Assembly (NCBI RefSeq): GCF_964340395.1
Contig: NC_135564.1
Location: forward strand, 10,751,391-10,815,390
Reading direction: 5' to 3'
Source of the DNA: Glandiceps talaboti
Taxonomy: Eukaryota > Hemichordata > Enteropneusta > Spengelidae
Length of the DNA: 64,000 nucleotides
How positions within the stretch are numbered: the first letter of the stretch is position 1; every line of letters starts with the position of its first letter. Positions 7,601 through 48,867 of this stretch are shown in pieces. Under the pieces are notes generated by a model. It was not told where the DNA came from. It saw nothing but the letters and a program-made list of their open reading frames with translations, and did no database searches. The position numbers were made by a program, and so were the translations under genes.

Positions 7601-7938
7601 ATACATACATGCATACATACGTACGTACGTACATACATACATACATACATACATACATACATACATACATACATACATACATACATACATACATACATAC
7701 ATACATACATGCATGCATGCATGCATGCATGCATGCATGCATGCATGCATGCATACAGACAGACAGACAGACAGACAGACATACATACATACATACATAC
7801 ATACATACATACATACATACATACATACATACATACATACATACATACATACATACATACATACATACATACATACATACATACATACATACATACATAC
7901 ATACATACATACATACATACAGATTGATACTCACCGAG

Positions 7939-7969
<31 letters not shown>

Positions 7970-13803: not shown

Positions 13804-13939
13804 TTAAATCCAGTCAGTGGCATTCACAGATCTTTTCTCTCTCAGAATTCCTGACACTTTCTTGCTTCCTTCACCTCTCTCTTCCACAATGATTCTTCCG
13901 TGTTCCTTCCTCTCTTCGTTGCTCACTGTCTGTGAATTA
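13804..13939 (-). CDS. EPC: EPC terminal coding exon 13 (residues 754-798 and stop)
   Basis: Acceptor CTTGGCAG gives a 45-codon open frame that ends NATDWI-stop. Two other AGs just downstream either hit an immediate stop or give a much shorter tail. Charged (EERKEHGRIIVEERGEG); sequence not conserved, so this is a model-based call. Confidence 0.65.
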
Positions 13940-16900
13940 CTGCCAAGATAGATCCTTGTACACATTAACACAGCTAAACACAACTAGAGTCAAGTCACTT
14001 CCATTACAACTGTTTGGTCATTACCTATACTTGTTAGTGATTTTCTTTTATCGTGTGCTTCTCTGCAACACAAAAGTAAAAGTTGACAAGTCAGTCAATA
14101 ATTCACCATAAGCAAAGTTCTAGTTACTTGGTTGTAATAGCTGAGCATCAATATTTGTGACTCCTAAGTGCTTATTACCTCAAATAAAACAATATTGATG
14201 TTCAGCTTTTACATATGTACGTCTACTGACTCCCTGTCCCATACGACAATGTGTGTCAATGGCAAAGAGTCCAATGAACAATGAAAGAGGAATAAGTTTC
14301 AACTTGTTATTTCTCGGTAATCACATATAATTTTTTGTAAGTGACGTCTAGTCATGAAATGACTCTCCATGACGCAATATTTCCGAAAATGCCTTTATTT
14401 TCTATCAGCTGTATTCCCTTTTAACCAGATTCAGAAGTATTGCAGTTCAGATTTCTAGTTTTTCTTACCTTGAAAGTCCATCTAAACTGTTTGGCGATGA
14501 GGACAGCTTAAACAAAGTACTAGCTGCCGACGTTGATGGCACAATTGATGATGTGACTGGCTTGGATACATTGGATGTTGCATTGAGTGTTGTCACTGTA
14601 CTGATATTATCAATAGCTGAAGCAGGACTTCGTGATTTGAGCAAGTCTGTTGTGCTGGTTGTTGTTGTTGTTGTTGACACTGCTGTTGCTGTTCTTGTTA
14701 ACGAGGTTGCATTTAACGTCGAGAGTCCTGTACTCGACGTTGTTGCTGTTGTGGTTGCTGTTGAAATTGGATAATTCAATTGAAGAACTGTTGCAGCAGG
14801 TGCAAGGGAATGACCAGGGGCAGTAACTACGGAAAAAAATAAATAGATACATGTCAGTGACTGACAATATCATGGATTTATGACAGATTGCAATAATCAA
14901 CAACACATATCAACAGACTAGTCTGACAGATTTGTTGTGGATGCTCCCTTGAAATCTGCACTAGCTGGCAACATGAACATTGATAGAAACTGTTTGTTCG
15001 ATATAATGATTTACTTGTTATATCATATTGTACATCCTGAACAGTGTTGAATCACGTGTGGGTAAATGTATTTGTGTAGCAGTATATATAGTGTGTAGTA
15101 ATAATAATAATAATAATAATAAATAATGTTGGGTTCTTATATAGTGCTTTCCCACGCTGTGCTCAAAGTGCTTTACAATTACAGGTAAAACAGCGAGGGA
15201 TCGCAGAACGACTGTGCGTATCATGCACATTTTATGTTCCCTAAGAACAATTTAGATAGATAAGAAACAGGCTTCCCACAGACCACTCAATACAAATATA
15301 AACAACACCACACTCCTGCTGACAAGCAGGCACTGTATGTGCACACACATATCACTTGTAACTTAGATTCAATACACATGTATGTGTCAAAATCTGAGCC
15401 TGTAATGCAATAACTTTCAATAGCTTGTTTGTTCCAAGGACGATGTGTGTGTGTCTGTGTATCAGAAGTAGTATTACTGATCAAGTTGTCCACATCCAAA
15501 TATCAGCACCCCTAATGAATCAAGACTTCAAACTTATCACTATACTACTTATAGATAAAATAGACCTTAAATTGACATGTACAAAGTCTAAGTATTGACA
15601 TTTTCACAATTTTCAGTGGATAAATTATTGGTTGTCTGAAAAAAACAAATAACCTAGTTAACTAGTGTAGACTTAATTACTCACTACATGTAGATTAGTA
15701 ATTAAAGTCAATTAAAAACACACTGACCTACTTTGAGTACATTCTCTGTAAACCATAGCCTATTTTTTTTTTATCAAGTGAAATGACATATGTAGGTCAT
15801 ATTGACAGTGCAAGTAATATCTGTGATAAACAAGGTAGAATTTGACTTTGAACTTTCGACATGAACATTCTCAATCAAGAAAAAGATGCAAATTTGTGGC
15901 TTCTTGAAATGAAACTGGCTGCCACTTGGTAAACAAATGATATGGGTTATCATGTAAAGACAATCATGATGTATCTGTGATTGTACTTTTGTTAAGTTTG
16001 GTAACCTTGGAAACAGCAGAATTTCTGTAACAACGGACTTGATGGTTTTTACGATGTAATGGCTTCAACTGTTTACTTTCCTACTGATAAAGTATATCTA
16101 CTTGTACACCCTAACTGTTTACAGCACCTCTACAATTGTTTTACTTTGTGTTTGAATTTGTTTCTCTTCAAATGTTGCATCTCATCAGTGAAACAGACAC
16201 CAACCCTGTAAACCAACTCTGCTGTAAACTTGAATATTTAAGGTATGTTACACCAATAAAGATAAACAGGTCATATTTTGATACTGAAATGTTCCTTTAG
16301 ACAAATAATAGTTTGATTTCTCTTCATCAAAACACAAGAATGATACCATTGCTATGGGCCTGATGATTATAGTTGCTAGGGTTTTTAATATAATTTTGCT
16401 CTTGCTGCTGTTCAAACATATGCAGTTATTATGGGTATGATCATGGTTGCTAGGGGTTTTCAGTACAGATTCAAGTAAGTATTCACCTGGCCACCTAAAA
16501 TACCACATGCAGTTACTATGGGCATGATCATGGTTGGTAGGAGCTTTTGGGGAATAATTTTGAATTATTGTTTTGTTAAAGTAATAAGCTGGTAAGCTGG
16601 TAAAATCAATGAGCTCCCCGGGTATTTTACTGGGTTCCTGACCAAACTCATGGTACATTTGTATAGGAATCTATATGTGTTTTACTAGACTTCTCCTCTG
16701 TTAGGGTTTCCAACCGTAGCAAAAAATACTGATGACCAATGCCAAGTGTTAGTTTGTCATTTACAGTCTGGCAACCATACAATAAAACACTGCCTGTAGT
16801 TCTAGCCCACGAATACCAGTGTACATGTACATGTACATGCAGTTGGAATTTTACTTTCTTAATATAACTCAACCCAACTTGCCTCCATGCTACCTGGAAA

Positions 16901-19900
16901 TCATCTCAAATCACACAAGGATAACAAACAACACTTGGGTATTGCAGTAGTTTTGAAAATCGATACTGTTGCAAGTACGCGACACTGTAATTTAATTCCA
17001 AATGTCAGAAGTCAGATGGCCTTTACCTATCATACTTACCACTCTGAATGTTCCAGTACATACCATATGTAATGTTACCTAGTATGGCTGAATATCATTT
17101 TCTTTCTTTATTCAAACCAAATCTCTGTAACTGCATAGCAATCATTTTGCTTTCCAAAAAATTTACCAACTAGACATCCCCAATAAAACAATGGTCATAG
17201 AAAATTACAATTGGTCAGGCATTTTTATGACTACCACTTTTAGTTTTTAACCCAATCTCCTTACCTGTGTAGCAATCGTTTTGCTTTGAACAATTTCAAA
17301 ACTAGATACCCAAAATAAAATTGCCATCGAACAAAATGACAAATGGGCTATCATTTTCTAACTGCATGTGGTCTATGCACAGGACAGACATACACAGACT
17401 GAACCAATATGCAATAAAATCATGCCATTATGGTAGAGGGAAGACAAGAACCTACAGACAATAATATTCCTCAGTATGGCCTACAAATCTTATTTGTAAG
17501 ACTACTTCTCATTTGTGCCCACAACATATCTCCATATTCTGGTCATGGCAAAGAAAACAATACATCAAATTGCCATTGCTTTTCAGCAGGTATAACTTTC
17601 TTGTCCAGTTCCACAGTTATTTCTTCTCGAGTTGCAACCTTTCGATGCCAGGCTCACAACCATTCACTTGTTTCAAAACAAGGCAACATGCCGCTGTAGT
17701 ACTGAGATGATGAAATTAGACGCCTAATATAACAAGGCATCTGATGTTGTTTGAATCCTTGCTCTCTGTAGGGTATATTAATCCGTGAGTTGCCTAAAAC
17801 ACAAGTGCTGGCTGGTGCCAATACTTACTTTTGGGAGTTGGCTCATATATGGCACTGTTCGTAACCTGGTTTTTAGAAGTCCTTGAATGTGCTGTGGCAC
17901 TAGGTTGCACTAGACTGGGACATTGGTCCGTGTTAATTAAAGCCGACACAGCAAATTGAGCACTTGCTGAGTCCAGTGTGAATTTGGAAGTCGGTTGCGA
18001 ACAAAATGACGCTTCCAAGTTAATTGAGGAATCTAGGAGGGACTTTTCTTGTGTTAATTGTTCAAGTTGCTGTTTCTGCATTTGTGCTAACTGTTCCTGG
18101 TGATTTAAAAACTGTTCTGCATTGAATGCTGTAGTGTCCTTATCACTTGAAGCAGCCGATGAACACGACGTTGATGATACAGGCACAGAGAAAGGCGCTT
18201 TGGTCTGACTACCACTCGGTTTGTCTGATGAAGGTGGTGATCTAGGTCTAAAATGTAACCTACAGAGGGAAAGAGAGAGAGACAGAGAAAAATGACAACA
18301 TGAGAAACTTACATATATAAAGTCAAAAGTAGATTGAAGAGAATAAGACAGACTCGTAGAAACTGTGATAAATATGTACCAAATAATTTATCCACATACA
18401 TCATCTTGATTGGTTTCGTTTACATTATAAAACTGTTGTTTTGTTTATTAAAAAAATATAATAAGGATGAATTTAGATGAAACTTTGCAGAAAGACTGCC
18501 TATTAGACAAGGACCAAATTATCTGATTCCACATCTGGATCTTAGTGATGCCATGGCATTACTAGCATCACCTATCAAGCTCCAACCATTGAGGGCACAC
18601 ATCTTTGGTTTTTGAATAGTATAGTTGGACTATTAGGTGAATGGCTCTCTGTTCTGCCTTGGCAGAGGTATGCAGCTTTACCTAGTGCTCTATATAGTTT
18701 AGATTGAGAATGGAAGGAAACACTTACCATTTGTTGTCTCTGATTTCTCTAAGAATTTCGCTAAGAGGAAGACCATTTGGCAGTGATGATGAAGTATTGG
18801 AATTTTCTAAATCACTAAGATGATCATCTATTGGTGTATAAGCTCTGTCTAAAATCACCCTGTAAAAATGAAGGAAGTCTGTTAGAATCTCAATGTCTAA
18901 AATCACCCTGTAAAAATGATGGAAGTCTGTTAGAATCTCAATGTCTAAAATCACTCTGTAAATATGAATGAAGCATGTGAGAATCTCAATATCTCAATCT
19001 TCAATTTCATGGCATGAAATATGGCTCAATTCATAATATGAGAATGACTGCAAGGTTGGTAAATGGAATATGGTGCAACTCTGAGTCTGGCAAACTATAT
19101 CTACTTATTGTCACTTCCTCCCCCTTCCCCCAACTCTTCATCAGGCAAACCCTGTAAATATTCTGATACTCACCGTCCACCCCTACCAACTCTTCGCCTG
19201 GCAAATCCTATACATCTACGAGGAGTCCTGAGTGAGGTACATGTAAAACGATATCGGTGATCACCCCAACCACCTTCTTCTTTACTACACCATGGCCAAT
19301 TACCTGCCTTTTCAGTATGTGCCTGTCAAGAACAATAAATGATTAGATTTGGGCACACAAACACAGATACATGTCCACACACACACACACAAATACACAC
19401 ACACAGTTGGACACATGAATACACACTGTGACACACAGATATAGACACAGACACAGACACAGACACAGACACAGACACAGACAAGGATTAGGTGCAGTAT
19501 CAAGTTTGCCCAGCACCCACACACTCAGATGCAAGGGACAGACATAGAGACACACACACACACAATCTATCCCACCCAGACAAAAATGCACACAGACACA
19601 CAAATTCAGGATTTACACAAAAAGACTTGTTCCCTGACAAGTGCCTTCAAGTAACAGTCTATGTCCTCCACTTTATAAATATATCACATGTTCTTGAAAA
19701 GATGCCAAGACTTTCAATTGTATCATCTATGACAAATCTACATCAATGAAGACTCATGTCATATTCTCCAATTTTCCTGACAATTGCAATAGAGAAATGT
19801 TTACTTACTGCATAATAACTGCAGCCTTTCTTTCTTCTAAAAGCAAACTGACCATCTGGATCATTTTCATCATCTTGGTCAGAAGGAGATTGCACCTGTT

Positions 19901-22900
19901 AGTCGAAAGGGAAGTTGCGTATTAGTTGTCATTTTATCAGTCTTAAAAGAAAATTCCAGTCAGAATTATTTCTGCCTTGGTCAGGACACTAGTGTTGATT
20001 ACTGCTATTAACTTGCTGATGGTGATGAAATATCACACTGATAACTTGCACTCAATTTTGAAATCTACCCTGCTGCACTGAACATGTGTTCAGCCAATTT
20101 GGAAATTTCCTGCACGGGTTTAGAGGAAAACTTCTGGTAATGATATCAATCTCTTTATCTTGACAAATATAGTGTCACTTCCTTCACCAAAATGAGGAAT
20201 TCTACTTACTGGTGAGAATACTTCGTCATCAGAACTGACATCATGCATGTGTGAATCTAAATCATTGTAGGTGGGCACTGTGCTGGTACTCTGTTGTCTG
20301 GCTTGATTTTTCAATTTCTGTTTTCTTTCATATTTCCTCTTTTTCCGAACAACTTCTTCCTGTTAATCAAAGATTGCAATTGTTTGTTAAATACATGTAG
20401 ATACTGCTATTTCTTGATTACTGAAAACTACAATGCATTTTACATAATTATCCAACACAAAAATATATACACGCAAAAAAACAAAACTTTTGAACCCCCC
20501 CCCCCCCTTTATTTCATTCAGCCTAGAAAAATACAAGTGACCTAAGGGGCTTTGTCACAACGAGTCAAAGATGAGAAGTGACATAACCTACTGTGGTCAT
20601 GGGTATTTTCTGCCTGAATGAAGAAACTTAATGGGGAATAATACAACTACCCAACACAGGTATAACTTATGAAAAATCATAGAGTTGCAACTTTGTATAA
20701 TTTGATTCATATTCTTAGCACTACAGACATGCATTGACATAACATACATGTAGAACAACTAGGGTATAAATCCCTTATACTTTGTTTAAACATGTTCAAC
20801 TTGGCTTGCAAGTGGCATAACCCACAATAACAAAACATGCACTACATATTGTAATTTGTTGCTGATCTGAATATAAGGTTACCAATTCAGTCCCCAATAC
20901 ATTCAGATACATACGATTTCATCAATATTCACAACTCAAAACTAAACATAATATACTTGCCCCTACTTTGTTTGCCCATGAATCATGGCGATGTAGACCT
21001 GACGCATACTGACTACCATTGTGTATTGATGGTATTGTATATGACGGTCTCTGGTTGCGAAGGGCTTCACACTCTGCCAACAGCTGACCATTATAATCAC
21101 CAGCTCCATATCTGTAATAGTTGCACAATTTTAGCCAGAGTTAGAAATGTATGAAACAGACAATGATTTGTGGTTTGTACACGTTCATAATTAAATTTTA
21201 ATCCCTGTTTGCTGTCACAAGCATGGCAACATGACATTCTTTGACACTGCCTTGTTTCCTTGTTAATAATGTACAGAATACCTTTAAAATTGTTAGGATT
21301 CTAATTCAGCAGTGGTCCAGGTAACATTGACTAATAAACATTGTATCTAGACTACCAAACTAGCAGTAGTCCAGGGTACATAGACTACTAAACATTGTAT
21401 CTAGACTACCAAATTAGCAGTAGTCCAGGGCACATAGACTACTAAAACATTGTATCTAGACTACCAAATTAACAGTAGTCCAGGACACATAGACTACTAA
21501 ACATTGTATCTAGACTACCAAACTAGCAGTAGTCCAGGGCATATAGACTACCAAATTTATAAGGTGATAGTCCATTAGACCAATGGAAATCAATAGAAAA
21601 ATTAAGCCGGAAATTGGCTAAATCTGACTACCATGTATAAAAAAAATAAATGAAAGCCTTTACATGAATTTATGCAATTACTCATCAACAATAAAAATTC
21701 ATCCATGACAAAGAATATTTAATTATGACAATTCAATTTCAATGACCTATGCCTGCCATTATAAATTCATTTTATTATCATTATTATTACTCTGTTGCAT
21801 ATTGGTAAATTTACACGTAATACCATGACAATAATTTTTACCTCTTCTCAAAGATTTCAACAGTCAGGTGGAGGTTTTCTCTTTTGCTCTTTTCTCTTCT
21901 TTTGACCATTTCTAAAAGTGTTACAGCTCTACTCAGATCCCTTCTGAGTTTTAGCATTTTTTCGTATGACGCTTCATCATTTTTTCTATTTTTCCTGGTT
22001 TGCATCTTTTCTGTCCGCCTTCTGAATGCTACGTAAGGATTGTTACTTGTTGAACCATCTCTCTTGTCCTGTTTTACTTGAGGTATTAAAGCATGACCCT
22101 GTAAAGGAAAATGAGTTGAGTTAGAAACACAAAGAACATATTTTAAGCAGAAAACTACGTTTGACCTGAATGCCCGCTGTAAGGTTATGTGTATGTACCA
22201 TTGTAAAGAGCGCCACCAATGGTGAAAGTGTGAATATACATGCATGGCCTATTCCATTTTTACACGAGTCTAGCTACATGTACCACGAGGTCAGCTGACG
22301 GAACATCATTTATTTAGTTTGGTTTATTCCCCAAATTGAGCATAGCAACTTGTATTTTACCAAGCTACTCATCTGACTTCAAGTCCTACTCCTGGCTCAA
22401 CTAAAAACAACATGCGAGAATGAATGTTCATCGACGCTGGGTTCATACTTAGTTCTGACGAGGCCTCGGCAAAAATTTGGGATTCATGTCCAAGAAATAT
22501 TTTGACTCTTGCGAGTAGAAATTTTCATTACTAAACATGTTATACTGAAATAGTACCCAGTTACAACACTGTTTCTGCCAATTATACTTATTACATTTAT
22601 ATGAGTTTCTGAAAATTTTAACAATCGAAAACAGGAGAAGCAGACATATTTCAATTAACTAATAATGTTAGCAGCATTTGCCACAAAACTTTTGGAAGGG
22701 ATGAATGCTGTGGTATGCTGTAGTATTTGATTCTGGACAACATTAATGGCCCAAATACTGCTGTCAAAAGAGGCCCTCAAGTGACCAAATTAGACAGTCC
22801 TTTGTCTTTCTGATAACTGGTACATGGTACTCAAGTTTATACTTACAACTTTGAGTCTCTTGTTTAGCCAGTAATCATATACTGCTATTATCAGGTCATC

Positions 22901-25900
22901 ATCTTCTTTTAGAAGTAATTTAGCTTCTTGTAAAGTCACCACCTGTGAATCAATTGTGCATGAGATATCAACAAATTGACGATTTGAAATTTATTACTAA
23001 ATGAATTATTTGGGCTAGGTATGAAGTTTGTTACTGATTACATATTATATCCTAAAATTGTCTGCAATGAATGAGTACAAAAATGGTAATTAATTATAAA
23101 TTACATGTAATACATACATCCTTGGATCTGATATTAGATCATCTTTAATTTCACACAGGTTCCTGGTTGCTGATTCGAGTTTATTCATTTCCTTTAGACA
23201 TTTTTGAGATGAAACACATGTAGCTCAGAACCAGTTTATAGAAATTTGCCCGTATCAGTGTTTTGCAACTATTATAAATATTAGGTAAAACATATTTGAA
23301 ATCCCCACGGATTTCAATAGGGTTCCATCATAGTTCTGGTACAAAATTGGAAAATTTATACCCCTTTTCCCGTCTGTCACAGAGGTTTAAAAAGCTCAGC
23401 CCAAACATACTCATCATACAGAGCCAAGACAAAGTGATCAGTCAATTCTCGCTACCTGCAATACAATTCTACACATCACTGTGGAGTCAAATGGAACGAA
23501 GTCGCGCGACAACACGTTCTAATGTCGACAACTACACTTTCGGTCGGCTATGCTAATACACAGGAATGTTTCTTTCCCATTTTCAGTTGCAGACATCTCT
23601 TGTAATTTTGCTCTGGAAAGATACTGTACATATTTAAATTTCCCACCTCCATAATTATATAAGCTTAAAACTTGCGTTTATCTTATTTATTACAAATTAA
23701 ACTGTTTGGAAGAAACATTCACGTGTATTGACATTGGTGACCGGAAATGTAGGTGTCGACAAATGCAAGGGCGGTCGCGAGACTGCGTTCCATTTGACTC
23801 CTCAGCGATGCATAGAATTGTATTGCAGATAGCGAGAATTCTAACTTCTTGTTACTACCTACCTGCTGTCCACTCCCCTTCTCTAATCTATCCATCATTT
23901 CTTCAAATTGTAGTGGTTTGATTTCTATGTTCTTTGATTGTTTCTTCATCCAAATCTCATCCCCTGAATCCATGTCGTAATCTGGAATGTCTTGTTCAAT
24001 ACCTAGAGCTAATGATAAGAGTAGACAAGATGGACGACATTAAATATGGATATTGTGCGTGACGTACAGTATTAATGAGTTTTTCTTTGACAGCACTGGA
24101 TTCATCATCTGTCTACGTTAGTATCTGCCAGCCAAGTGTCAGCCTGTTGCTAACATCAAACTAGCCCGGTATTAACACCGGTCAGGTACACTGTACTTGA
24201 ATTTCATTTGAAAATATTTGCAGGTGAGGCGGTGGTGCCAACTTGGTGTTAGCACTGAGCTACATTGTACATTGTCACAGAGTCAGAAAGCAGGTTTGAG
24301 CTGTCTTGCATCATAAGACGCATCAGGTGAAAGATCTACCTCTATCACATTTCCAAAAAACTTTCCAAAATTCCACTCTTTTTATTTTCTGCAAGTTTTG
24401 AAGTACTTACGTTGTACATGGATATATTGCTTGTTCTGTCTATATGTAAGATCATACAATCTGTCATAATGAGGGACACCACCAATAAACTCTGGAGTGG
24501 GTATAACTAAATTACTTGTAGTTCCATAGACTTGTTGTGCAGTCATCGCTTCTTGAAGATGGCGTTCCTGTACAAGAGGCAAGCAAGTCAAGAAATTAGT
24601 TTGAAAGAAAACTTTCCATTTGTTAGGGGCTGGATCATACTTCTGAAGTAAACTCTATAAGTCAAAGACTCAGTGAATACTACAGGCAAGGGTTTCAATA
24701 CAGGGTTCTCACATTAGTGTTATCTTATCAGTAGAGACATAAGGATTACATACATGTAGGGTTATTCTATTATTTCTAATGCAAACTGGGCCACTGAGGC
24801 TGATGTGCTACCTATTTTTGTTCTGTTCAATATCTGGAATTATTGATGCATGGACACCGTAAGATAAGTAGCCCTCCCCCCACCCTGATAATTTAAATAA
24901 CATTAAATAAATAAAACTAAGAAATTAGTTGCGACTCTCTCCCATTCTAATCTAAATTAATAGGGACTTTATGGATAACATCAATCAAAATTATATTTTT
25001 GTGGAAAAATACACCAGTGATATTTTGGAAGATACATTTAAAAAACATGTCATTCATGATTGTATTGCATGTAGTAATTTATCAAAATGCAATTAAACTA
25101 ATACATTCAAGTCATTGTGTATTTAGATATGCATGAACAAAATTAATATGAGTACTAAAATTTTAACTAATACACCAGTAGTATAACATTAATATCATGT
25201 CATAAAATATACCAATGTAGCATTTCTATTTTAACACTTCAATGTACCGTAAACTTGGAAATTTGAACAAATGTTAAAACTAAGTAGTAACTATCACTAA
25301 AGTCTTCTTGTATATAAACACAATGCACCAGTCTGGTCATTTGTCAAAATTTATCTTTGAGACCTAACTGAAGACTGTAAAAATGCAAATTTTTCTGGGT
25401 GTCAAATATCAAGGTTTAGAATACCAGTATGAGAAGCAATTTGGAGTATGCATTATATTTGCATAATTATTACTTGAGCACAAATTTTTGCTAATGGCTT
25501 CCTCTTTGCATGTAAATGAAAGTACAATGTGCCTTGGGGACCACTTCCCTGAAAAGTCAATTAATTTCACTGACTGCCATTATATGATGAACACTTGTAA
25601 TGTTCCTGGTCTTTCTTATTATAATAAAAGAAATCTAGGGTTCATTGTTATGTTTTCAAGAAAATTGACAATTTTTTATTTTCATAGAGTTTGGAGATAG
25701 TATTTGGAGGACATATTCAATTCTAAAATGGATCAATTTTGATTTCATTTTCATCTCTATTTTCCAATTTATACAATGACACCCTCTAATGATAACCAAA
25801 ATTTGTTGTGGGTCAAAAATGAGAAAAACTGAGTCACCACATAGTAAGAGATAGGGAAACACTAAATTTTGGTGCGTCACTACAAATTGCATGCGTCAGT

Positions 25901-28661: not shown

Positions 28662-28880
28662 GATGATCTTGACACAATAACTAACTTACGATCCCTTCAC
28701 GACACCTCTTAACGAGGTCGTAGACCCAAAGTTGGTATCCGCGGTACTTTTTAGCTTTCCCTAGTTGGCTTCCATATAGGTTTTAACTTGTGAAGCTACC
28801 TGTGCTTTACACTAAAAGAGTCAAAATTTCAAATTTTTTCAAATTCGTACAATTCAACATGGCGGACACGAAAATTTGCT
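28662..28880 (-). promoter_or_regulatory. Likely EPC promoter / 5' UTR
   Basis: Sequence directly upstream of the EPC ATG, with locally raised CpG (CCGCGG at about 28740). It carries AACATGGCGGAC at 28856-28867, which resembles a YY1 site of the kind seen at metazoan housekeeping promoters. No TATA box was identified and the start of transcription is not determined. Confidence 0.45.
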
Positions 28881-31049: not shown

Positions 31050-31765
31050 CCATTACTGGCTAGTATAAAACACTGCTATTGATTAAGTGGATTGTTGATG
31101 GCCAATGAACTAACAGTACTTGCACAATTGACCAAGAAAAAGATCTTGGCACCCATACCCCCCTTGGATTATGTCTATCCTATTAGTCATCCATGATCTC
31201 ATTTAATCTGTGGCAAAAGATATTTGATGGGTAATAACATTGCTATGTGAAAGTGAAATCACTGATGTCCAATCCACTAATAATAGGATGGACCAAGTGA
31301 GATTTTTGACGGGGACTATCGCAATGGACCAATCATTATTTTAAATTCCACTTGGTTAACTGATATGTAGTCAGTCACCAACTATCGCATAGCACAAGAT
31401 TACACATAATGGGTAAAAATACTGCTATGGACCAAGCCTGATCTTTAATTGGTAAAACCATTGCTATGGACCAAATCTGATCTTTGATTGCTAATACCAT
31501 TGGTAATATCTATACCATTGCTATGGACCAAGTCTAACTGCTATGGACAAAGTGTGATCTTAAATAAGTAAAACCATTGCTTTGGACCAAGTGTGATCTT
31601 TAATTGGTAATACAATTGCTATGGACAAAGTCTCATTGCTATGGACCAAATCTGATATTTAATTGGTAATACCATTGCTATGGACAAAGTCTGATCTTTA
31701 ATTGGTAATACCATTGCTATGGACAAAGTCTCATTGCTATGGACCAAATCTGATATTTGATGGCA
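31050..31765. repeat. Degenerate tandem repeat with TTGCTATGGACCAA core
   Basis: Units of about 40-50 bp: CATTGCTATGGACAAAGTCT, GATCTTTAATTGGTAATAC. The copies become more alike from about 31390 to 31760; the left part is more diverged. Confidence 0.7.
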
Positions 31766-33432: not shown

Positions 33433-33820
33433 GGCCTAATAAAAAAAATTCTATGGTTCCAATTACGCTCAATTTTAGAATAGGTGGGGTAGGATGATTT
33501 TTGATTTTATTTTTTTAAATATTTTTTTTTTCATATGTGAATGTCTACTTCAGGTAGTTACGTTTTCCATTGTTTTCCATATGGTATCAGTATTATTGGT
33601 TTCTTCTCATCAGATGTACAGCCATTACAGATTGAAAGAACACTTTCGTATTGTTTTTTAAAGTTGGTGTCAGTTTCTGCATCCACTATTTCTTGCGAGA
33701 CTTCACAATTTTCGCGATTTTATTATTTTTCCCCCAAATATTTTTTTAAAAGTTTACGGTTGGCGTAAAAAATTAGGTGGGGTCTGGTAACCGGAACCAA
33801 GCAATTTTTTTTTTTAGGTC
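33433..33820. mobile_element. Foldback DNA element, family B copy 2
   Basis: Second copy of the element at 1029-1405: shared interior words include CAATTACGCTCAATTTTAGA, CAGCCATTACAGATTGAAAG and CCACTATTTCTTGCG. Ends with GTAACCGGAACCA and a T-run, the inverted version of its start. Target duplication not resolved. Lies downstream of MBD5/6. Confidence 0.7.
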
Positions 33821-34832
33821 TTAGGACTGAACAGCATGATGTGTTTTACAGTTTATTTATTGTAAGATCAGCAATAAAAATAACTGTAAAACCATGATTT
33901 TCATTGGCACTACACATACTTTTCAACACTCTGTATCCTTGCGTGTAAAACACCATGAATTGATTTGATTCCTACTTCGGCACATACAGCTCTAACTTTC
34001 TACAGTCGCAACATTTTGTGTCAGTGTTTTTGGTAAAGTTTTGGGAGCCATGGTAACAGAGATAGGGAATCTAGAATGAGTTGGCTACACTTCCATACAT
34101 GGTATCATTATTTTGGTGGGAAACTCTGGCAAGGAAATCTCAGGTAGCTTTTACTTGCTTATCATCCCTTACCAAATTCACTGCTTTTAGAGTGCACATT
34201 ACTCCTTTTATCAACAGATATTCTACTGGTACGTCTGCGCAAACTTAAACTTATGCTTTATCAATTTTGTAAATAAATAATAAATATGTTGCAAATTGGA
34301 CTTATTTGCTCTTGTTTGTGAATATGTTTTTGATACTCTACGTGCATGATTCAACTATGTAAAATAATGTCATTCCTTATTAGAGTTGTCATGATTTTTT
34401 TTTTCAAACTTGCAAAAATAAATGATTCACATTTTTAAAAAAACCGGTATACAGTATTTTGGGTAGCATGTGACCATTTTGTGTATATGTTCAATAAATA
34501 ATCTGTATTTGGGTACAACTCTGCTAACTCCTTATTACAGGTTCAACTAATCCATTAGTTGTACGAGGCGAATTACCACACCATCAGATTGGTTGTAGAA
34601 GGATTGTTTGGTGTCCATCTGGTCACAAACTTCTCCTAACTACTGGTACTACTCCGGCATGATGAAAACAACTCCAACATCTTTATATACCCACAATCGT
34701 TATTGCCGTTTCCTTTTCCTGTTTTCACACTTGGCGTCAGACTCACTATTTCCAATACTTGTTTGAAGTGTCATTCACTTCTAAAAACCATCATCTAAGA
34801 CTCCCCATAACACTGACACACCATTACAATCA
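33821..34832. other. MBD5/6 3'-flanking or 3' UTR sequence
   Basis: AATAAA on the minus strand at 33852-33857 is a candidate poly(A) signal. No coding exon recognised. Confidence 0.35.
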
Positions 34833-34904
34833 TTATCGCAATTTCCTTCTCTTTATTTTGGGTCTAGATTTATAGAACATCCTCCTTGATTTGGAATCAA
34901 ATGG
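34833..34904 (-). CDS. MBD5: MBD5/6 terminal coding exon 7 (residues 1710-1732 and stop)
   Basis: Acceptor TTTTCAG. Encodes a short basic tail ending [10 protein letters not shown]-stop, like human PKPKRRKISR-stop. A minus-strand AATAAA about 1 kb downstream (33852-33857) is a possible poly(A) signal, weakly supported. Confidence 0.9.
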   Translation of the reverse strand, partial: PFDSKSRRMFYKSRPKIKRRKLR

Positions 34905-35004
34905 CTGAAAATAAATGAAATTAGAGTTAGTTTTAAATAAATCTACTAGAAAACTTTCTTGCTCCTTACATAAAGGTGATACAAACATTAACATACACAC
35001 ACAG

Positions 35005-35064
<60 letters not shown>

Positions 35065-37089
35065 CTGTCAATTGCAAGTATTCAATTCATACATGTGTTT
35101 GAAAAGTTCAAAGCGCAGCAGTTATTCTATTTACACAGGGCCCACACTATGAAAAACTTAGTCTAGTTCCTATACATGTATCGTTACAATCAGAAACCAT
35201 GTTGGCATTCAGACTATGAAAACCTAGACAGTAACAAAAGATGCTCAAACAAAATTTTGCTTCTGAGCAGAAATTTACATGATTAATGAAAGACTTCATT
35301 ATGTACACCTCCCTGAAAAGACGAAGTACATGAACTTAACACCAAATGCCTTACCTTGTCATCCAATTCCATCATAGCTTCCTGAATGGCAGCTTCAAGG
35401 TGGCTGTTCATTTTTCTACCCCTGTGGGTACAAACAATCCAAACTCACAATGAGAATTTAGAGGTAGTGGCTACACAAATATGTGTGAAATAGACACAGT
35501 GAAAACAATGTTTAGACACACTTGGTACAGCAGCAATGTGTTTACCATATGTAATGATCACTGAGTACTATATTCACCTACCAAAGTCTTAATAATTTGG
35601 TGCCAATGGCACTGAAACACAACTGAATACTATGCAAGTATTTTGGAAAGGTTTGATAAATGGTTCAGTTATGCTACAAATTACTAGAGATGGCACTATG
35701 TATTTGTATTAGAAATGGAAGTTATCTCCCTGCCCAGAATCTAGACTAATGAAATGACTGGTTAGGATAGTATTTTATGACATTCATGCTCTTTTCCCTC
35801 TCTTCTGAAAGGTCTAAGTATTCACATTTTTCAGGAAAATAGTCACATATACATGACATCCCAATGTTTTTGATTCTGTTACTAGAGAGTAACATCACAT
35901 TAATCTGATGGTAATAAGTACTTGGGAGTCATGACTATTCAATGTTCATCTAATCCATATTCATGTCAGTGAAGACCCAGTTGAGGGATGTCCGCTATCA
36001 AATACTTTCTCTTTGTTTCAAATTTTTAGCTGAGGAATACATATATACTTATTAAGTACATTGTAAAGATTCTTTGTGTTATTTATCTTGTGCATTTACA
36101 GATTTAAAATTTGCCTTTATTCCTTTTTAGGATACTCTGTATCTTGTGTTTCTTTTATCATATCAGAAAGATTTCACTCCAAAAGCTAAGGAAATGATAG
36201 TAGATTGTATTACCTCCTGTTTCGTTTTCTTGCCCTGTAATGCGTTTCTAGACCTTCTGATAAAGTTTTCAATTTTTCAGGTTCCACCTGGGTATATGTA
36301 TGGTCACCAAACCACATCACCCACACCTACGATGAGAAAAACCAACCATAAATTGTGAGGATATTCAGGCAATACACAAGAAATAGTAATACCTTCTTGG
36401 TAGTAGGTTGACAGATTTTTGGCATGATGGATAAAGAAAGATAAACATAGTCACAAAGAACATTACAAAACATTGTAACATTATTACTATAAGTCCATAG
36501 GACTAAAGTGACTCAAGTTGTGTACCCCTCCCCCACTAGTCATGAGTTCAGATCCCACCACTGCCACCAATGTATTAAACACATTTGGGTTCTGATCATG
36601 GTCTTGTGTTCCCAGTAGAAGATTGACTGACTGTTTGGCATGATGGATAAGGAAAGACAACCAGAGTACCCTACAAAGCACTGCTACCATTACTGTTATG
36701 AGTCTGTATCTTGACCTCAGTTACTTGAATTGTGAGTTCTAGACCAATCATTTAGATGATATGGGTTAAAATCCCACCACTGCCACCAATGTAACACAAT
36801 CAGGTTCTGATCATGGTCTTGGTGTCTTGGTGTGTGGGTTGACTAGTGTTTGGCATGATGGGTAAGGAAAGACAATCACAGTCACAGGGTACTCTACTAA
36901 ACACAGCTACTTTATTGCCAAGTCAAAGGCTAAGTTACTTGTCAAGGAGTCATATACTGTGTGCCCTGTAAGCCAATTTGACGCACCACTGATGCACACA
37001 ATTTCTAGTGATGCACCAACATTTAGTATTCCTGTATCTCTTATTATATGGTGACTCACAAGAATGCCTGGTTTTTCTCATTTTCACTC

Positions 37090-37120
<31 letters not shown>

Positions 37121-38210
37121 AATTTGGCTGTAAATTGTGGGCACACTGGTCATATATCTACTTAATATTCAAAAACTATATCATGAATAGTAATATGCAC
37201 AAGTAAACATCTAGCATGTCAAAATTATACAACTATCACACATGATCCTTATTTGATACAGGAAATATCACCTGTCACTTTCTTTCACTATCACACACAT
37301 TTTGATGGATTGAAAATACCAACCTTTCCTTCCTCTGATTCTAAATCCTCCAACTTGAGTTTGACATCATGTTCTGGTACAATCTTCCCAGGCCATGATG
37401 GGAAACCCTGGATCTGACCCCAAACCAAATCACCAAGATCAAAAGTCCTTGGTATGGTGGAGTCCATGAAATCAGGTGAGTCAGGGTTGTCAACTTCTCA
37501 CACAAAAAATAAATAAAAGATTATATTAGAGAATATCATTTGATTATGTAATTTATGTAACTAAGGAGATGTCTAAGAGGAGCAAAAACTGAAATTTTTT
37601 TGAAACTGTTCTGTTAGATATAATAAGTTACTCATAATATCATACACCCTGAACAGTATTGAACCACCTGTTACTGTACTAGTTATGGATAAAAATGAGC
37701 TCTACATAACATGCACAATGCATTTTAACAGTTTGTAGGTTGTCTGATCAAAAAATTAGTATTCCAATAACTAGTGCAACTTAAACTTAGAAATCAATAT
37801 TTTTAAGTACAGATATATAATGTACATGTACGGCAGCCAATTTGCCTGAAAATCAAACTTATTCAAATCTCTCAAATCATTGTTATGAATAAAATGATGC
37901 ATAGACTGAAGATTCACCACTGTTGGTGCTCTTGTTAACCTGTACATGAACATTACTAGGTTGTATCATGGGGTTGTATGAGTTTACTCAATGATGAATT
38001 TTTCAGTCTAGCTATGGACTGTTTTTAGGCTGCTTGGCATGATTATTTTTCATCTTTTTGCTGTATGTAATACACACATACACACACACAAATGCACGCA
38101 CGCATGCACGCACACACACACACGTACATACGTACGTATGTATATACATACATACATACATACATACATACATGTACATACATACATACATACATATATA
38201 AATACATACA

Positions 38211-38244
<34 letters not shown>

Positions 38245-40244
38245 AATACATACATACATACATACACATCATACAATTACATACATGTACATTTGTAATA
38301 TTATCTATAATTACCTCCATCTTGCCTTACTATCATCTCTTCCTCATCCTCCTCCTCTTCATCGTAAATATCGTCATCATCATCACCGTCTTCATACCCA
38401 TCCATTCCTCCATCTGTTGTGAAATGTGCATCATTCTGTACTACATGTCCTGCCATTTCCTTAAACCGATGTAAATTTGAGAAACCTGAATGATATTCAG
38501 TTTGTCTGATGACTATTGTATTTCTATCATTGGCAATGTCTTTTGCCTCCTTGTCATTGAATTCACAACCTTCAGTAACAGTCACAACTCCTGGAGTTGT
38601 GGCAACACTGTTTGCTGTATAAGTAGTTTTGCTGCTTGAATTAGTACTTATCGCTACACGAGTTTGTTGACTGCAATGTCCAACAGACAACATGTCATGT
38701 CTTGCATCCTGCAAGCTGCATATCTGCCCGGTGGAATCATTTTCATGGACGGTATTATCACAATTGTTTTCAGAATGCCTGATGTTCTCAATTTTGTTTT
38801 GCTTGTCAGTTGGACTTAAATCAACATGCTTTCCGTTGTTAACACTCTCTGCTTCCTTTAATCTACTTTGTCCGTTTTCACAGTTTTTCAGGTTTGAATC
38901 ACACAAGTCATCATTGTCAGTATGTTTATTAGGTAGTGGTGACGGTTTGGTTCCAGAAACTAAACTGGAGGTATTCTCGGCTGAACAAGTTCTGCTAGAT
39001 TCAGGTATTGGTGTGATCAAGGCACTCTCAGAATTATTGTCTGCTGACGATAGCGAGGATGTGGATGACAATGATGGTGGTGACGAAGATGCAGATGAAG
39101 CTTGTACTACTGATGTTGTTTCCGTGACAGTAGTCTCTGCATTTACTTTTGAGGAGTTCCCCTTTGAAGCCTGTTTATTCTTTCCTCCTGTGATAACAAC
39201 CCTTACTCCTGAGTTTGCAGCATCAACGACTGCTTTGTATATGGCATCAATTTCAGCATTACAAGCTGAGGGATTACTAACACTCTTTGGTTTTTTAATT
39301 AAAGGGTTATCTTTCCCTTTCCTTTGGCTTCGTGGTTTGGAATGCGAGTGTCCAGAATTCCCAACACCTGCTCTGGGTGATGTTTTCCCTGATGGTACAT
39401 TTGCTGTCCTGCTTGGCTGTTGTGCAGTTTTAATTTGTTGATGATTACTATTTTGAAGTTGATGTCCACTGTTTGCTGGGTCTACCATACAAGTGTTTTT
39501 AGGACTGGGGTTAATTTGGAAGTTATGATACATAACTTGTTGTTGAATGACATTTTGATCTACACACTGTGTATGCACTGGACTTGGCTTACCCTGCAGT
39601 GGCACGGTTTCTCCCATCATCTGTTGTTGTTGCTGCTGCTGCATAGTTGGAAACATTTGTTTGTTCACTGGGGAACACTGAGGAAAGTTTTTCATCATGT
39701 TCACTCTTGGCAATGGAAGATTCCCTGGATTACTATTATTATTACTTTGTGGGAATTGGCAAAACATCGGATTGTTTGGTTGGTTCATAGCTGCCATACT
39801 GAAAGACAAATTACTACTCTGTTGTCTCAACTGTTTCTTTGATGCTGACACAATGGGGACAAAATTGTCACATGGGTTCAAGGAGTTGCTTACAATGGAT
39901 GTCGGTGACTGGTGCACTTGCTGCTGTAATTGTTGCAACTGCTGCTGTTGTTGAAGCTGTTGCAGTTGTTGAGGAGACCACTGTTGCTGTTGCTGCTGCT
40001 GTTGCTGTTGTTGTTGTTGTTGTGGTTGGTTGCCATGACTGAGAAAACCTTGGTTAAAGTGTTGGATATTTCTATCATCTGAAATGTGAATATTCCTATT
40101 TGCAGGATTCATCAACATAGCAACATTCATATTCATTTGTTCTCCAGCATTTGTCATTATTGGCATTCCTCCACTGCAAGGTACTTGCATAGATTTACTG
40201 AAAAATGCATTATTATGGACCTGTAGTTGCTGCTGTTGCTGCAT

Positions 40245-40279
<35 letters not shown>

Positions 40280-43200
40280 GCTGCTGCTGCTGCTGCTGTT
40301 GTTGTTGTTTCTGCAATAAAGTTTGTTGTTGAAGCATCATGTTGACTTGCTGTGAGTTCAGTTCATTGAAGTTGCCCTGGAAGGCCATAGCACCACTTGG
40401 TGGATTCATTTGCATGTATTGTAATGGGTAACTTGTTTGCACATTTCCTGGCATTGTCCTGTTCACTTGCATTCCTGTAGATGCACTGATACTCATGTGA
40501 ATGGCATCATCTCTGTTCAGCAAAGTATTGCCTAACATGTTCATAGATTTTAACCCTTGATTGTCAACAGGCATATTCATAGCACTACTAACAGTGTGAG
40601 CTGGTCCATAAAAATCTCGCCTTGGTGATACGTTCATTTGTTCTCTATGCGGTTGACCTTCAATCATCATTTCATGACTGAGAGGCCTTCCTGTTTTCGG
40701 CATACCTACTTTCATGACACTCGGACCAGAGCTTTCAGCTTCGTGTATAAGCACAGAATCAGATTTCATTTGTGAGATCTCTGAGGGCACCAACCCTGAG
40801 TCTGCTGTACAGTTGATCACAACATCTGGTTCTTTGTAAGACTCTATACTTTTGACTGTACTCTCCAGGCATTCAATAGGAGACTTATCAGGAATATTTC
40901 CAGGAATGAGTTTTTGTCCACCTTTTGTCCCCAACATGGCAGTGTTTATATTTCCCATTATTGAAGGCATTTCTGTCAACTGTCCAGGTGGCACAAATGT
41001 ATCAGAACTTACTTTCATAGAGCTGAACATCACGTTTGGCGAATTTCCACATTTTGCAACATTGTTCATTTTTGTGGACCATGTTAATTTATCCTGGTCA
41101 GGGGGTTGACTTACATGTGAACTGGTTGACAGTAACGTATCATCCTTTCTGAATGTCTGTGTGAACTGTACACCAGTGCTGGTTGGCAACACGTTGGTTA
41201 GAGTTACCGTAGTGGAATTCACATCCCCACTTGTTCCAACGGTACTTGGAATATCAATTCCCATTCCAGACATCACAGAAGTCCTGGAACTCCGAGTGTC
41301 TGTTGGATTTGATGCTAGAGTTGTGGTATTAGACTGTGAGGCCTGACTTGCCATCTGTGCTTTTGCTGCGGCAGACAGAAGACTACTAGCTGGAAATGCA
41401 ACTGGATTTTGACTGAAAATCTGCTGCAGAGTAACTCCTGCTAGACCAGGCTGAGATTTGGTTTTGGTTTCATTTGCTTGTTGTACATAACTATTTAACA
41501 GTGATTTAGTGAGGTCATTTTGTTGTTGAATGAAAGTTTTCAATTTGTCCTCAATCACGACAGTGTTGTTTTTCCCTTGCTGTGATGAAGTTGCTGGGTT
41601 CATAGTGGAAAGTATCTGTTCTGTAGTACTAGAAATTGGAGCTGATGGAAGCAGTTTAGTGAGCACACTCGAAATCAATGTCTGATTGTCTTGACTTGCC
41701 GTTGCTGTGGTTACAGACACGTCAGTTGGACTTGATGTTACACAACTTGTGTCTGATGTTAGAGTTCTACCACTTGACTTATTTCCAGGTTGTTGTCTGG
41801 TAGCTGGAAGCATTAAATTACTAGGCAATGGGATAATTGTGGGCACATTTCCATTTCCACTCCCTGAAGAATTCCCAGTAGCGTCACCAACGGTCGATTT
41901 GCTTCCAGCCGTACCCAGATTATTGAGTGCATTTGTATTTGTGTCTCTGGGACTTTGTAGAGGACTAGGATTGCTTGGTTCACTGGATGCAGGACTACGT
42001 TGCTGTTGTCTCACCGATACTGCAGGACTTGGTAAAGACACGGCTGGACTGGGAGTTTGCCTTAAATTTGGATTAGGAGGAAAACCAGAACAAACTGGAC
42101 TTTTCCTCATAGGTGATGTCCTTGCAAACGGATTGGAGATATTTCTCTGCATTGAATCTATGGCACAATCTGGATTGATATCAGCTCTCATAAACTCAAA
42201 TGGGTTTCTTATCGGTGATTTTGTTGATGGTGACCTGAGCGGTGAATGAAGTGGTGATCTCATAGGCGATTTTGCTGATGCCGGAGACATGCTTCTCTGG
42301 TCAAAGTTCATTGCACCCATTTTGGGATTTTGTTGATCTAGGCAACCCTGCATATGTTGGTATTGGTGTTGTTTCTGCTGGATCATCTGGAGTTGTTGTT
42401 GTATCTGAAGCTGCTGCACCTGAATGCTGTGCTGTTGCAGATGATGATCAAACGGTATATTGGGTAATGATGGATGTAAATTGGTTATTGATGGAGGTCT
42501 TTCTCCCCTCCTGGCTAATAGTTCATAAACTGACATGTTTGGGTATGCATGGTACACAGCATTCGTATTAGTTGATGCCTTCTTCCTTGGACGTGTCCTT
42601 GAACGTGCTCTTGAAGTTGTCGACCTTGTCGCCCCTAGAACATAAAGAAGAGAACAATCTAGATCAGTTTATTTGACTATGTATGTGATCATACATGTAC
42701 ATGCAACAGTTAAGACATACATAATGCTTTCAACAGTCAGTAATCCTCTACCTTCACAGGACCATGATTTGAAATGTTTAGCACATCAGACTTAGAGAAC
42801 TCATACATGCTACAAAGTTATACAAATACATAGTAACGATATCCTGATATGAAGTTATTTGATGATTGGAAAATTACAGAGATGATTATTTTGTGACTAC
42901 AGAAGACAGCATGACATTGACATTTGAGCTGTAAGATGTACCGGTATGTGTAAGATGTGGTGATGTATTTCAGATGTAAATGTCTGTCAGTTAGGAGAGA
43001 AGATATTCTTGTAGTAAGATCTCAGATCTGCATTCAGAAGGTTGCTGAACAAAAGCCAAGGATGACAGTACCTTGGCAAAGTGAGTGACTTCAGTGCTAC
43101 GCGACCTGGTGTCACTTTTAAAGTTAGCAGAACTGTTCAAGGGTCTACCAGCTATGCCAGAGAGAAGATAACTTTTTATTTCTCTGCCCCAGCCTTTTAA

Positions 43201-45832
43201 TTTTTCATAACACCACCACCATCAACATCACCACAATAACAACCACATAATCACATTTATAGCACCTCTTTGGCTACCAAGCATTCTATTATTTTCCTAT
43301 GGTATTCATCCAGCTGTGTAGCCCCTAGGAACTGCGACACACAAAATCTGACTAGTCGACATAGTTGTTTTTAAAGCTGTTCACATATTTAATTAGACTT
43401 TTTATTCAATAGATACTCTGTTATACTTTTGGTATGATGGAATCTTTAGAATCTTTAAAGAGAGTGAAGTTTCAAATATCTAACATTATATTATACCAGT
43501 ATATTGATGGCGTGAATCGAGAGATCTGATTGGTCTAGACATCGAACTAGTGCATCTAAAATGAGCGGTAATGCACAGTTGGCACATATCCAAATTTTGA
43601 TGTTCACTGTACGTCTAGAACGTTGTAGTCTGTGCAGGGATGGGGGCACAAATGAAACCAGAAAACATTGCGTCTTATCTTGTTTCTGATATTTTCAATA
43701 TACTGGTATAATATAATAGCGATAAACCATCCCTAGGAATGGTACCACTCGGTTTTGACCAGTGAACTCAATATATGCACTCGCTATCGCTCGTGCATAT
43801 ATTTCGTTGACTGGTCAAAACCTCTTGGTATACCATTCCCAGGGGGTGGTTTATTGCTTAATCTATGTTAACAATGTTGGTGTGATGGTTGCACAACATA
43901 AATTTAGGTACACATCAGATTTATCAATAATTTGTAAAGATACAAAGTGTTCTTCCACCCTATCAGATACCACTTTCAGTAAAGAGTGACCAAAACAACA
44001 AGAAGACATACTGTAAACCTAGATATTTTCACCACTAGAAAATTTATCGATTTTATAGTATTCAGCTAGTTCTCAAAGACTTATTTTCACTAATTACCAG
44101 ACTGGCACATTGTCTTTATGTACAAGAAGTATTTTAGTCAGTGCTTATTTTTGCATTTTTGTTTTCCAGCAAACAAAAACAAGTCTTAAGCAAACTTTCC
44201 AGGTTTATAGTTCTTGACAGTAGTTTACTTTTATCACTATGCTGGTATTTTTTTGGATCAACACCCACCTGTTTTGGTCTTTGTAGGCCGGCGTTCTTCA
44301 ACATGTGCATTCGGAAGAGTTGTACCAGTCTTAATAGGTGGCTCCTCAACACTGCTTTGCAATGTTGCCATGGCAATAATCTTTCGTTTATGATTACACA
44401 AGTTTGTAAGAGCACCATCTTGCTTCAGGTCTTCTGTGGTCCTTTGCTTGGAAAGTATATGGACATCAAAATTAAAGACTTTATCCAACTCTAGGGGGCA
44501 CTCTAGTCCACACTTGCATGTACCTTCAGTCTGTAGGTATTCTTTGATGTTTTCTAAACATGTCAATAGGCTCTGATTGGGACTACAAGTGAACGAGAAA
44601 AATAGAATTCATTAGCAAAATTTTAGTCACAGTGTTCAATACAGGGTTCTCTTTTTTCACAATATTTCGTTCTGATATGGTTTCCCAGCAAGTGATACGA
44701 TCAAACTGATGCCTTTAATCGCCTAAGTAATATCCAGATACTAAGAAATACTATCATGATACCATATACTTTGGAACTCAAATCAACAAATTTTCCCAAG
44801 ATGTAACATAAAGAGATATCTGTATGTCTTCGTTTTCTATGTAAACTCAACCCTGCCTAATACAGCTTCATCTTTACATGTATATCTCTATGTCACAGGA
44901 AACTCAATTTTCAAATTCCATACCCCAATATTCATACACGTTGTCCTAAATGCTCCAAAGTTTGATACAAAAAAAGTTTTGTCCCGTCAACTGTCAGATT
45001 GTTAAATCGATGCTAAGTTGCATTTGTTTAGTTTCCCTTTCTTTTTACTCATCTTTTTCAGGGTTTTTGTGTAAACAGAGTATATTGTTTTTATTTGTTC
45101 TGTTGTGAGCTGTGAACTATGTATCCTTTGAGGACTATTAAATGAATACTGATAATATTCAGCTCGGATCATGTATTCTTTATCATTATCTGACATTGTA
45201 TATTAAATCTAATACATGTATGTATGTCGTGTGGGAATGAATGTTCATAAAACCTCTGGTCATGAGAAAGTTTCTACTCAAAGTCAACACAATTTTTGGG
45301 TGGGAGTGGGGATGGAGTATCACTTCCAATTTTTTTTTTACTCGGCCAGTAGAAATGTTCACTTGTAATTGTATCTATAATGTTTGCAACCTAACAAAAA
45401 ATGTTTGATGAACCCCTCATCACTATTGTCTACTACAGCTAGCTGGGATGATAAGATGAGGTTAGACATTGGTGAAACTTTGGGATTCATTTTCTGCAAA
45501 TGATTGACTAAGAATCTAGAATTCATTAACATTTATTCCCACAGTTGTATTTATGTTGACCTTCAACAGTTATAGTCTAAACATCAAGTTCCAATGCCTA
45601 ATTGACTAAGAGTTCTAAGTAGATTTCTCTCATAAATAATACTGTCCTGTTACCTTATATAGACCACACAGCCATTCTGTAACAGCCTCTGCCATCCAAA
45701 GGGTACTTTCACAAACTCAGTACCCGTCTTGTTGACATCATTTTGATGTTCAATAGTCTCTTTCTCACCATTCCAATTGTTGTCATCTGTCTTTCCTTTA
45801 TTTACCAAAGGAATTTCTTGGTTGAAATTCAT
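34833..45832 (-). CDS. MBD5: MBD5/MBD6 ortholog: MBD-PWWP chromatin protein, complete, 7 coding exons
   Basis: Nuclear chromatin protein. In mammals MBD5/6 do not bind methyl-CpG; their MBD recruits them to the PR-DUB (BAP1) H2A deubiquitinase. Seven exons join in phase to 5199 nt, 1732 aa plus stop, somewhat longer than human MBD5. Domains seen: MBD at about 41-103 ([31 protein letters not shown]); [10 protein letters not shown] just after; an SP-repeat zone at about 220-265; [14 protein letters not shown] and [14 protein letters not shown], both present in human MBD5; two poly-Gln tracts (about 939-968 and 1033-1075); [19 protein letters not shown] at about 1289-1308; an acidic run at about 1572-1600; a PWWP domain at about 1623-1690 with SWPG as its signature; and a basic tail KIKRRKLR. 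An in-frame TAA lies 5 codons before the ATG, supporting the start. MBD6 rather than MBD5 naming is equally valid for a pre-duplication ortholog. Confidence 0.95.
35006..35063. repeat. (CA)n microsatellite in MBD5/6 intron 6
   Basis: About 29 uninterrupted CA units. Confidence 0.97.
35355..35421 (-). CDS. MBD5: MBD5/6 coding exon 6 (residues 1687-1709)
   Basis: Acceptor ACCCACAG, donor GTAAGG. Encodes [20 protein letters not shown], matching human LNNHLEAAIHEAMSELD. Confidence 0.93.
36214..36287 (-). CDS. MBD5: MBD5/6 coding exon 5 (residues 1663-1687)
   Basis: Acceptor ATACCCAG, donor GTAATA, ends in phase 2. Encodes [14 protein letters not shown] and RARKRNR, matching human [16 protein letters not shown] / RVRKRNR. 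Completes the helical end of the PWWP domain. Confidence 0.93.
36415..36900. repeat. Tandem duplication, unit about 225 bp, MBD5/6 intron 4
   Basis: TTTGGCATGATGGATAA, ATCCCACCACTGCCACCAAT and GTTCTGATCATGGTCTTG recur in order, a little over two copies. GAGTTCAGATCCCACCA looks slightly like a tRNA B-box, so the unit could be SINE-derived; not proven. Confidence 0.65.
36957..37148 (-). mobile_element. hAT-type MITE (family A), inverse copy with 8-bp duplication
   Basis: 192 bp, opposite orientation to the copy at 52119, flanked by the identical octamer GTCATATA (36949-36956 and 37149-37156). It contains a (CAA)n expansion (about 37090-37119). Lies in MBD5/6 intron 5. Confidence 0.85.
37324..37496 (-). 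CDS. MBD5: MBD5/6 coding exon 4 (residues 1605-1662): PWWP core
   Basis: Encodes NPDSPDFM then [20 protein letters not shown], matching human [19 protein letters not shown]. Acceptor is a GAGAAG tandem; use of the second AG (exon start 37493) drops one Glu. Donor GTTGGT, phase 0. Confidence 0.93.
37600..37792. mobile_element. Degraded family C MITE relative, MBD5/6 intron 3
   Basis: Shares ACCCTGAACAGTATTGA and GGTTGTCTGAT with the copy at 12329-12676, and ends TAACTAGTGCAACTTAAAC, a worn version of its right end. Left end not defined. Confidence 0.55.
38085..38260. repeat. Mixed ACAC / ACGT / ACAT tetranucleotide array, MBD5/6 intron 3
   Basis: CA-rich start, a CGTA block near 38123-38137, then ACAT units interrupted twice by the same TATATAAATACA segment. 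Confidence 0.93.
38315..42634 (-). CDS. MBD5: MBD5/6 large central exon 3 (residues 165-1605)
   Basis: A single 4320-nt exon, acceptor GTTCTAG, donor GTAATT. It opens with a basic AT-hook-like TRPRKK stretch, then [16 protein letters not shown] repeats ([15 protein letters not shown]), [24 protein letters not shown], two Gln tracts encoded by mixed [17 protein letters not shown], Ser/Thr-rich sequence and a terminal Asp/Glu run. The first in-frame methionine of the uninterrupted frame is not the start; the exon continues a spliced frame. Confidence 0.95.
42635..44268. other. MBD5/6 intron 2
   Basis: Holds the hairpin element at 43719-43858. No alternative exon recognised. Confidence 0.5.
43719..43858. 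mobile_element. Compact hairpin element, MBD5/6 intron 2
   Basis: Left arm CGATAAACCATCCCTAGGAA, TTTTGACCAGTGAACTC, ATATGCAC; right arm GTGCATAT, GACTGGTCAAAACC, CCCAGGGGGTGGTTTATTG. Arms of about 62 bp surround the small core TCGCTATCGCTC. The transcript would form one long stem. Confidence 0.8.
44269..44582 (-). CDS. MBD5: MBD5/6 coding exon 2 (residues 60-165): second half of the MBD
   Basis: Acceptor CTTGTAG, donor GTGGGT, ends in phase 1. Encodes [43 protein letters not shown] and [14 protein letters not shown], all close to human MBD5. Confidence 0.95.
44583..45653. other. MBD5/6 intron 1, between the two halves of the MBD
   Basis: No repeat of note. A minus-strand 64-codon Lys-rich open frame (45002-45196) sits here, but exons 1 and 2 join perfectly without it. 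Confidence 0.5.
45654..45832 (-). CDS. MBD5: MBD5/6 coding exon 1 (residues 1-60)
   Basis: Starts MNFNQEIPL and reaches the first half of the MBD ([17 protein letters not shown]). Donor GTAACA after AG of Ser60; the next exon supplies T, giving YISPNQ, exactly as in human YVSPSG. Confidence 0.93.
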
Positions 45833-48847: not shown

Positions 48848-48867
48848 TTTGACAGATTATTAGATAC

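Follow-up and report, generated by a model that had tools for sequence, protein, structure and literature searches.

The window analysed here is a 64,000-nucleotide stretch of the Glandiceps talaboti genome (contig C17, positions 10751391-10815390; the assembly spans 590.4 Mb in 47 contigs). On its minus strand, open frames and splice modelling place two genes as tandem neighbours, an MBD5/6 gene upstream (coding sequence 34833..45832) and an enhancer of polycomb (EPC) gene downstream (coding sequence 13990..28661), with 6171 bp separating the stop codon of MBD5/6 from the start codon of EPC (28662..34832). A preliminary description of this DNA had claimed the same adjacency, with both genes on the minus strand and MBD5/6 upstream, and the splice models confirm it. 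The MBD5/6 start at 45832 and the gap of 6.2 kb given there prove exact; of the overall extent, 13804..45832, the start stands and the EPC end moves to 13990. Only GT-AG sites were sought during modelling, so the GT-AG ends of all introns (18/18) are a rule of the models and not a test of them; the joined frames are free of stops. A few splice sites are ambiguous by some codons: in EPC, 24008 is an alternative start for exon 3 and 22850 an alternative end for exon 4, and MBD5/6 exon 5 was set at 36287 by homology where 36326 had the higher score.

The MBD5/6 gene has seven coding exons (45832-45654, 44582-44269, 42634-38315, 37496-37324, 36287-36214, 35421-35355 and 34904-34833) encoding 1732 aa. 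The model, restricted to GT-AG sites, is supported by the PWWP domain and by matches to segments of human MBD5. Exon 3 (38315-42634) is 4.3 kb long and encodes long glutamine runs. Four matches to the human segments are collinear: an MBD domain split across exons 1 and 2 (44269..45832, minus strand; 55% over 121 columns, 136 bits), a pair of short motifs in the middle (63% at 52.8 bits and 64% at 36.6 bits) and the PWWP domain with the conserved C-terminus in exons 4-6 (35355..37496, minus strand; 60%, 110 bits). The best score among 100 shuffled copies was 25.8 bits. The PWWP domain, near the C-terminus of the protein, also lies above the Pfam cut-off (PF00855, E 1.3e-10). In the MBD exons Pfam returned no family and PDB chains gave no match, and the MBD assignment therefore rests on the comparison with the human MBD5 segments. 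Given the collinear matches, and shuffles that reach at best 25.8 bits, the window gene is by its sequence an MBD5-type gene. Both an MBD and a PWWP domain are described for isoform 1 of human MBD5 (PMC2917364). MBD5/6 is presented as a subunit of PR-DUB that is conserved in flies, and binding to the ASXL PHD finger within that complex is reported for the human and fly proteins (PMC9523997).

The EPC gene, modelled from open frames and splice sites, has 13 coding exons on the minus strand (28661-28509, 24567-24411, 24002-23863, 22942-22847, 22098-21842, 21111-20967, 20359-20210, 19895-19809, 19322-19174, 18859-18728, 18259-17829, 14826-14469 and 14062-13990) and encodes 775 aa. Its EPL1 (E 8.8e-13) and E_Pc_C (E 1.3e-22) domains both lie above the Pfam cut-offs, and human EPC1 aligns with it from end to end (E 3.6e-197). 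EPC is a subunit of NuA4/TIP60.

No gene was recognised by eye in the intergenic gap, whose longest open frames, likewise read by eye and outside the Pfam scan, are 106 aa on the plus strand and 95 aa on the minus strand. At the EPC 5' end (28500-29700) the CpG observed/expected ratio is 0.76, against 0.37 for the window, and at the MBD5/6 5' end it is 0.22. Given this low value at MBD5/6, and other bins in the window that equal or exceed the EPC 5' end (0.88 at 38001, 1.18 at 49001), CpG content is weak promoter evidence here. The 6.2-kb gap and, weakly, the CpG content at the EPC 5' end are nonetheless consistent with two unremarkable genes that each have a promoter of their own.

To the right of the pair, a gene that we take to be AARSD1-like starts at 62459 on the plus strand (62459-63046 within the window) and runs beyond the window. 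This gene and MBD5/6 diverge, their starts lying about 16-17 kb apart, and the tRNA-synt_2c match of the AARSD1-like gene (Pfam E 0.0031) falls below the cut-off. To the left, a class I myosin, encoded on the minus strand some 23 kb beyond the edge of the window, is the next recognised gene downstream of EPC; it resembles MYO1B (best piece 87.5%), the comparison having covered class I only. Human MYO1A presumably lies at 12q13.3, which together with the class I myosin here gives a weak hint of wider linkage. Farther left, a Pfam scan of 55 of the 577 frames of at least 60 aa, with frames crossing a 10 kb joint excluded, matched 13 families, some surely by chance (p6, Trp_repressor); the matches there include MH2 (SMAD-like), TPH, filamin, kinase, Roc, TIR and pentraxin. 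Within the window, the scan took 150 of 220 selected frames (at least 45 aa, not of low complexity, and lying below 13700 or above 43500, the 70 shorter ones being left out), some of which fall in MBD5/6 exons 1-2; between 13700 and 43500, nine chosen frames were scanned, and two further chosen frames, at 44258 and 62459, lie outside that range. At E ≤0.01 the 150 frames gave tRNA-synt_2c, DUF7381 and DUF6671, one frame each, of which the two DUF matches were not taken seriously and only tRNA-synt_2c was kept. Long simple repeats of few bases at 7437-8165, 48737-49524 and 4669-5245 are open in several frames and were not taken as genes.

A search of the whole genome with E_Pc_C gave a single match, at the EPC gene of the window. 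The corresponding EPL1 search gave one match, on contig C1, which by eye looks to be a BRPF-type gene; this search is limited because the window's own EPL1 domain, split over exons, escaped it. An Antp-type homeodomain query produced 38 matches. Ten of these, all on the minus strand, lie at 18.20-18.59 Mb of contig C20 (18203031-18592628) and make up one Hox cluster, three on C9 at 10.56-10.65 Mb (10559069-10649819) are ParaHox-like, and the remainder are weaker, some of them on C17. With one E_Pc_C match and one contig bearing a Hox cluster, the host genome is probably unduplicated. Since Hox clusters occur on human 2q, 12q and 17q, linkage to Hox was considered; a place for the MBD5/6-EPC pair in a Hox-bearing linkage group is not borne out, Hox being on C20 and the pair on C17.

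Human MBD5 and EPC2 are presumably on the same strand. The published gene order in human 2q22-23 is ORC4, MBD5, EPC2, KIF5C (PMC4690300, PMC7471508), so the MBD gene precedes the EPC gene there too. For a named pair of neighbours, the chance of recurring in the same order and orientation is 1.7e-5 to 3.3e-5 (about 2e-5), by the formula 1/(2N) with N = 15,000-30,000 genes; this is a figure per named pair and becomes higher when many windows are scanned. The agreement in order and presumably in strand, the low chance figure, the full-length likeness of the proteins, the single E_Pc_C match and Hox contig, and the human duplicates, which keep subsets of the set, together make inherited linkage the best reading, and much the likelier one compared with chance even when many windows are scanned. 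Counting against it are that it draws on one invertebrate genome, that the flanking genes are unlike those in human, and that some pairs are bound to turn up by chance when many windows are scanned. The Drosophila MBD5/6 gene (sba) and E(Pc), which we believe to be on different chromosome arms, also count against it. We found no paper on MBD5-EPC2 synteny; supplementary tables, which may well list the pair, were outside the search, and neither PMC12407938 nor PMC2622764 gives the gene names searched for in its main text.

We propose, with a probability of roughly 0.8, that the last common ancestor of this invertebrate and vertebrates already carried MBD5/6 and EPC as neighbours, in tandem on the same strand. 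Both lineages would have inherited this ancestral tandem, the two vertebrate genome duplications would have copied it to yield MBD5-EPC2, and the copies now represented by MBD6 and EPC1 would have lost their partners. The earlier claim that the linkage predates the vertebrate duplications is thus supported by the one E_Pc_C match, the one Hox contig and the identical human order. Both the common descent of the linkage and the reason for its retention are matters that we infer, and for the latter the most economical account would be that a short tandem rearranges slowly, whether or not breaks are also mildly selected against. No special mechanism is needed for the pair beyond inheritance and a slow rate of rearrangement.

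A more active explanation would have the pair held together, beyond inertia, by shared or interleaved cis-regulation, whether in a genomic regulatory block or through co-expression of chromatin regulators. Neighbouring genes are, according to the survey in PMC8851819, sometimes kept together since regulatory elements of one lie in the other, and membership of the products in PR-DUB (cited above) and in NuA4/TIP60 makes co-expression plausible. During human neural differentiation, however, the genes around ZEB2, including MBD5 and EPC2, are described as generally unchanged in expression (PMC7471508), which neither supports nor excludes such regulation. Shared control of a PR-DUB and a NuA4 gene is a guess, and we regard retention by this route as unlikely. 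Less probable still is that the adjacency arose independently in both lineages: the neighbours on both sides are unlike those in human and nothing shared was found beyond the pair, but the chance is about 2e-5 for each named pair in the human order and orientation, and very many pairs would have to be read before such a coincidence was met.

Returning to inherited linkage, its extent can be addressed through KIF5, which the preliminary description had made the third member of a pre-duplication MBD5/6-EPC(-KIF5) block and had suggested seeking to the left of the window. A KIF5 motor query found nothing significant within the window (best E 0.85), in the 200 kb to its left (best E 5.9) or in the 60 kb to its right (best E 2.0). 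With the same query, a search of the whole genome places a KIF5 gene on contig C5 (27858026-27894446, plus strand), whereas the window is on C17. That search gave at least 110 kinesin matches (123 of 246 candidates scored), seven of which form the C5 gene: five exons are 75-83% identical to the query motor, the first 47% and one 54%, and two of the seven match spans run over a stop. Read by eye, the gene shows what we take to be a kinesin-1 type neck. The best single E-value among the matches listed belongs to a 60% match on C8. Two kinesin matches on C17 itself (7153518 and 7154248; 51% and 45%), some 3.6 Mb from the window, were rejected as KIF5 and look like another kinesin.

The C5 gene has a partner of its own. 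DCTN2 (dynamitin) gave three matches at C5:27828638-27845253 on the minus strand, two of them above the cut-off, and its 5' exons, found with a human DCTN2 query, reach a start codon at 27857452 with an in-frame stop just before it. DCTN2 and KIF5 therefore stand head to head, their start codons (27857452 and 27858026) 574 bp apart. The 701 bp around both start codons have a CpG observed/expected ratio of 1.31; in C5:27845001-27859000, 22 of 28 bins of 500 bp are at or below 0.32, and the other bin that stands out, at 27846500, reaches 1.03. The two genes probably share one bidirectional promoter.

The human regions keep different subsets of these families. Besides the 2q order given above, the order at 12q13.3 is listed as MBD6, DCTN2, KIF5A (PMC3990535), and KIF5B and EPC1 stand in successive rows for 10p11 in a table of PMC11203018. 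MBD5/EPC2/KIF5C at 2q23, EPC1/KIF5B at 10p11 and MBD6/DCTN2/KIF5A at 12q13 suggest an MBD-EPC-DCTN2-KIF5 array in vertebrates before the duplications. In the hemichordate the same genes form two pairs, MBD5/6-EPC on C17 and DCTN2-KIF5 on C5, and their human relatives share three regions. Of the proposed block, then, the pair holds, the KIF5 extension fails in this genome, and a block in the vertebrate line fits the human lists. One way to reconcile these arrangements, to which we give even odds, is that two older pairs, a tandem MBD5/6-EPC and a divergent DCTN2-KIF5, make up the vertebrate MBD-EPC-(DCTN2)-KIF5 neighbourhood. They would have come together in the chordate line ahead of the duplications or else have been separated in this lineage. 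The constrained unit would then be the pair and not the block, because both pairs are intact on different chromosomes here.

A pair drawn from two different histone-modifying complexes thus joins the animal gene neighbourhoods that have probably persisted from early bilaterians onward; the larger block proposed for it is cut here between EPC and DCTN2-KIF5. The age of the linkage is of some use because MBD5 and EPC2 lie together in copy-number changes of human 2q22-23 (PMC4690300).

The closest known system is the human MBD5-EPC2 pair at 2q23.1. There, as here, the genes are adjacent, with the MBD gene before the EPC gene and, presumably, on the same strand, and human MBD5 too has both MBD and PWWP domains. 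The surroundings differ: the human pair is flanked by ORC4 before and KIF5C after, whereas the hemichordate pair has the AARSD1-like gene beyond MBD5/6, on the opposite strand, and the class I myosin beyond EPC, and ORC4 lies on C20, away from the pair on C17. A second parallel is human DCTN2-KIF5A, neighbours in the published list for 12q13.3 as their counterparts are on C5; it differs in that the hemichordate pair lies outside the window. We found no paper on KIF5A-DCTN2 synteny. The human genes are presumably head to head as well.

More broadly, the MBD5/6-EPC pair is a further example of a well-known phenomenon, conserved microsynteny, and ancient gene blocks are common. In a survey of 49 animal genomes, 256 new microsyntenic blocks were assigned to the bilaterian ancestor, compared with 45, 48 or 56 such blocks in shuffled genomes, and 93% of the bilaterian-ancestor blocks were retained in lophotrochozoans (PMC8851819). 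As the source describes them, those blocks apparently comprise at least three genes, with pairs treated as background, and the figures therefore serve as a guide only where pairs are concerned. The present case resembles them in that unrelated adjacent genes have been kept together between phyla, and differs in being a pair.
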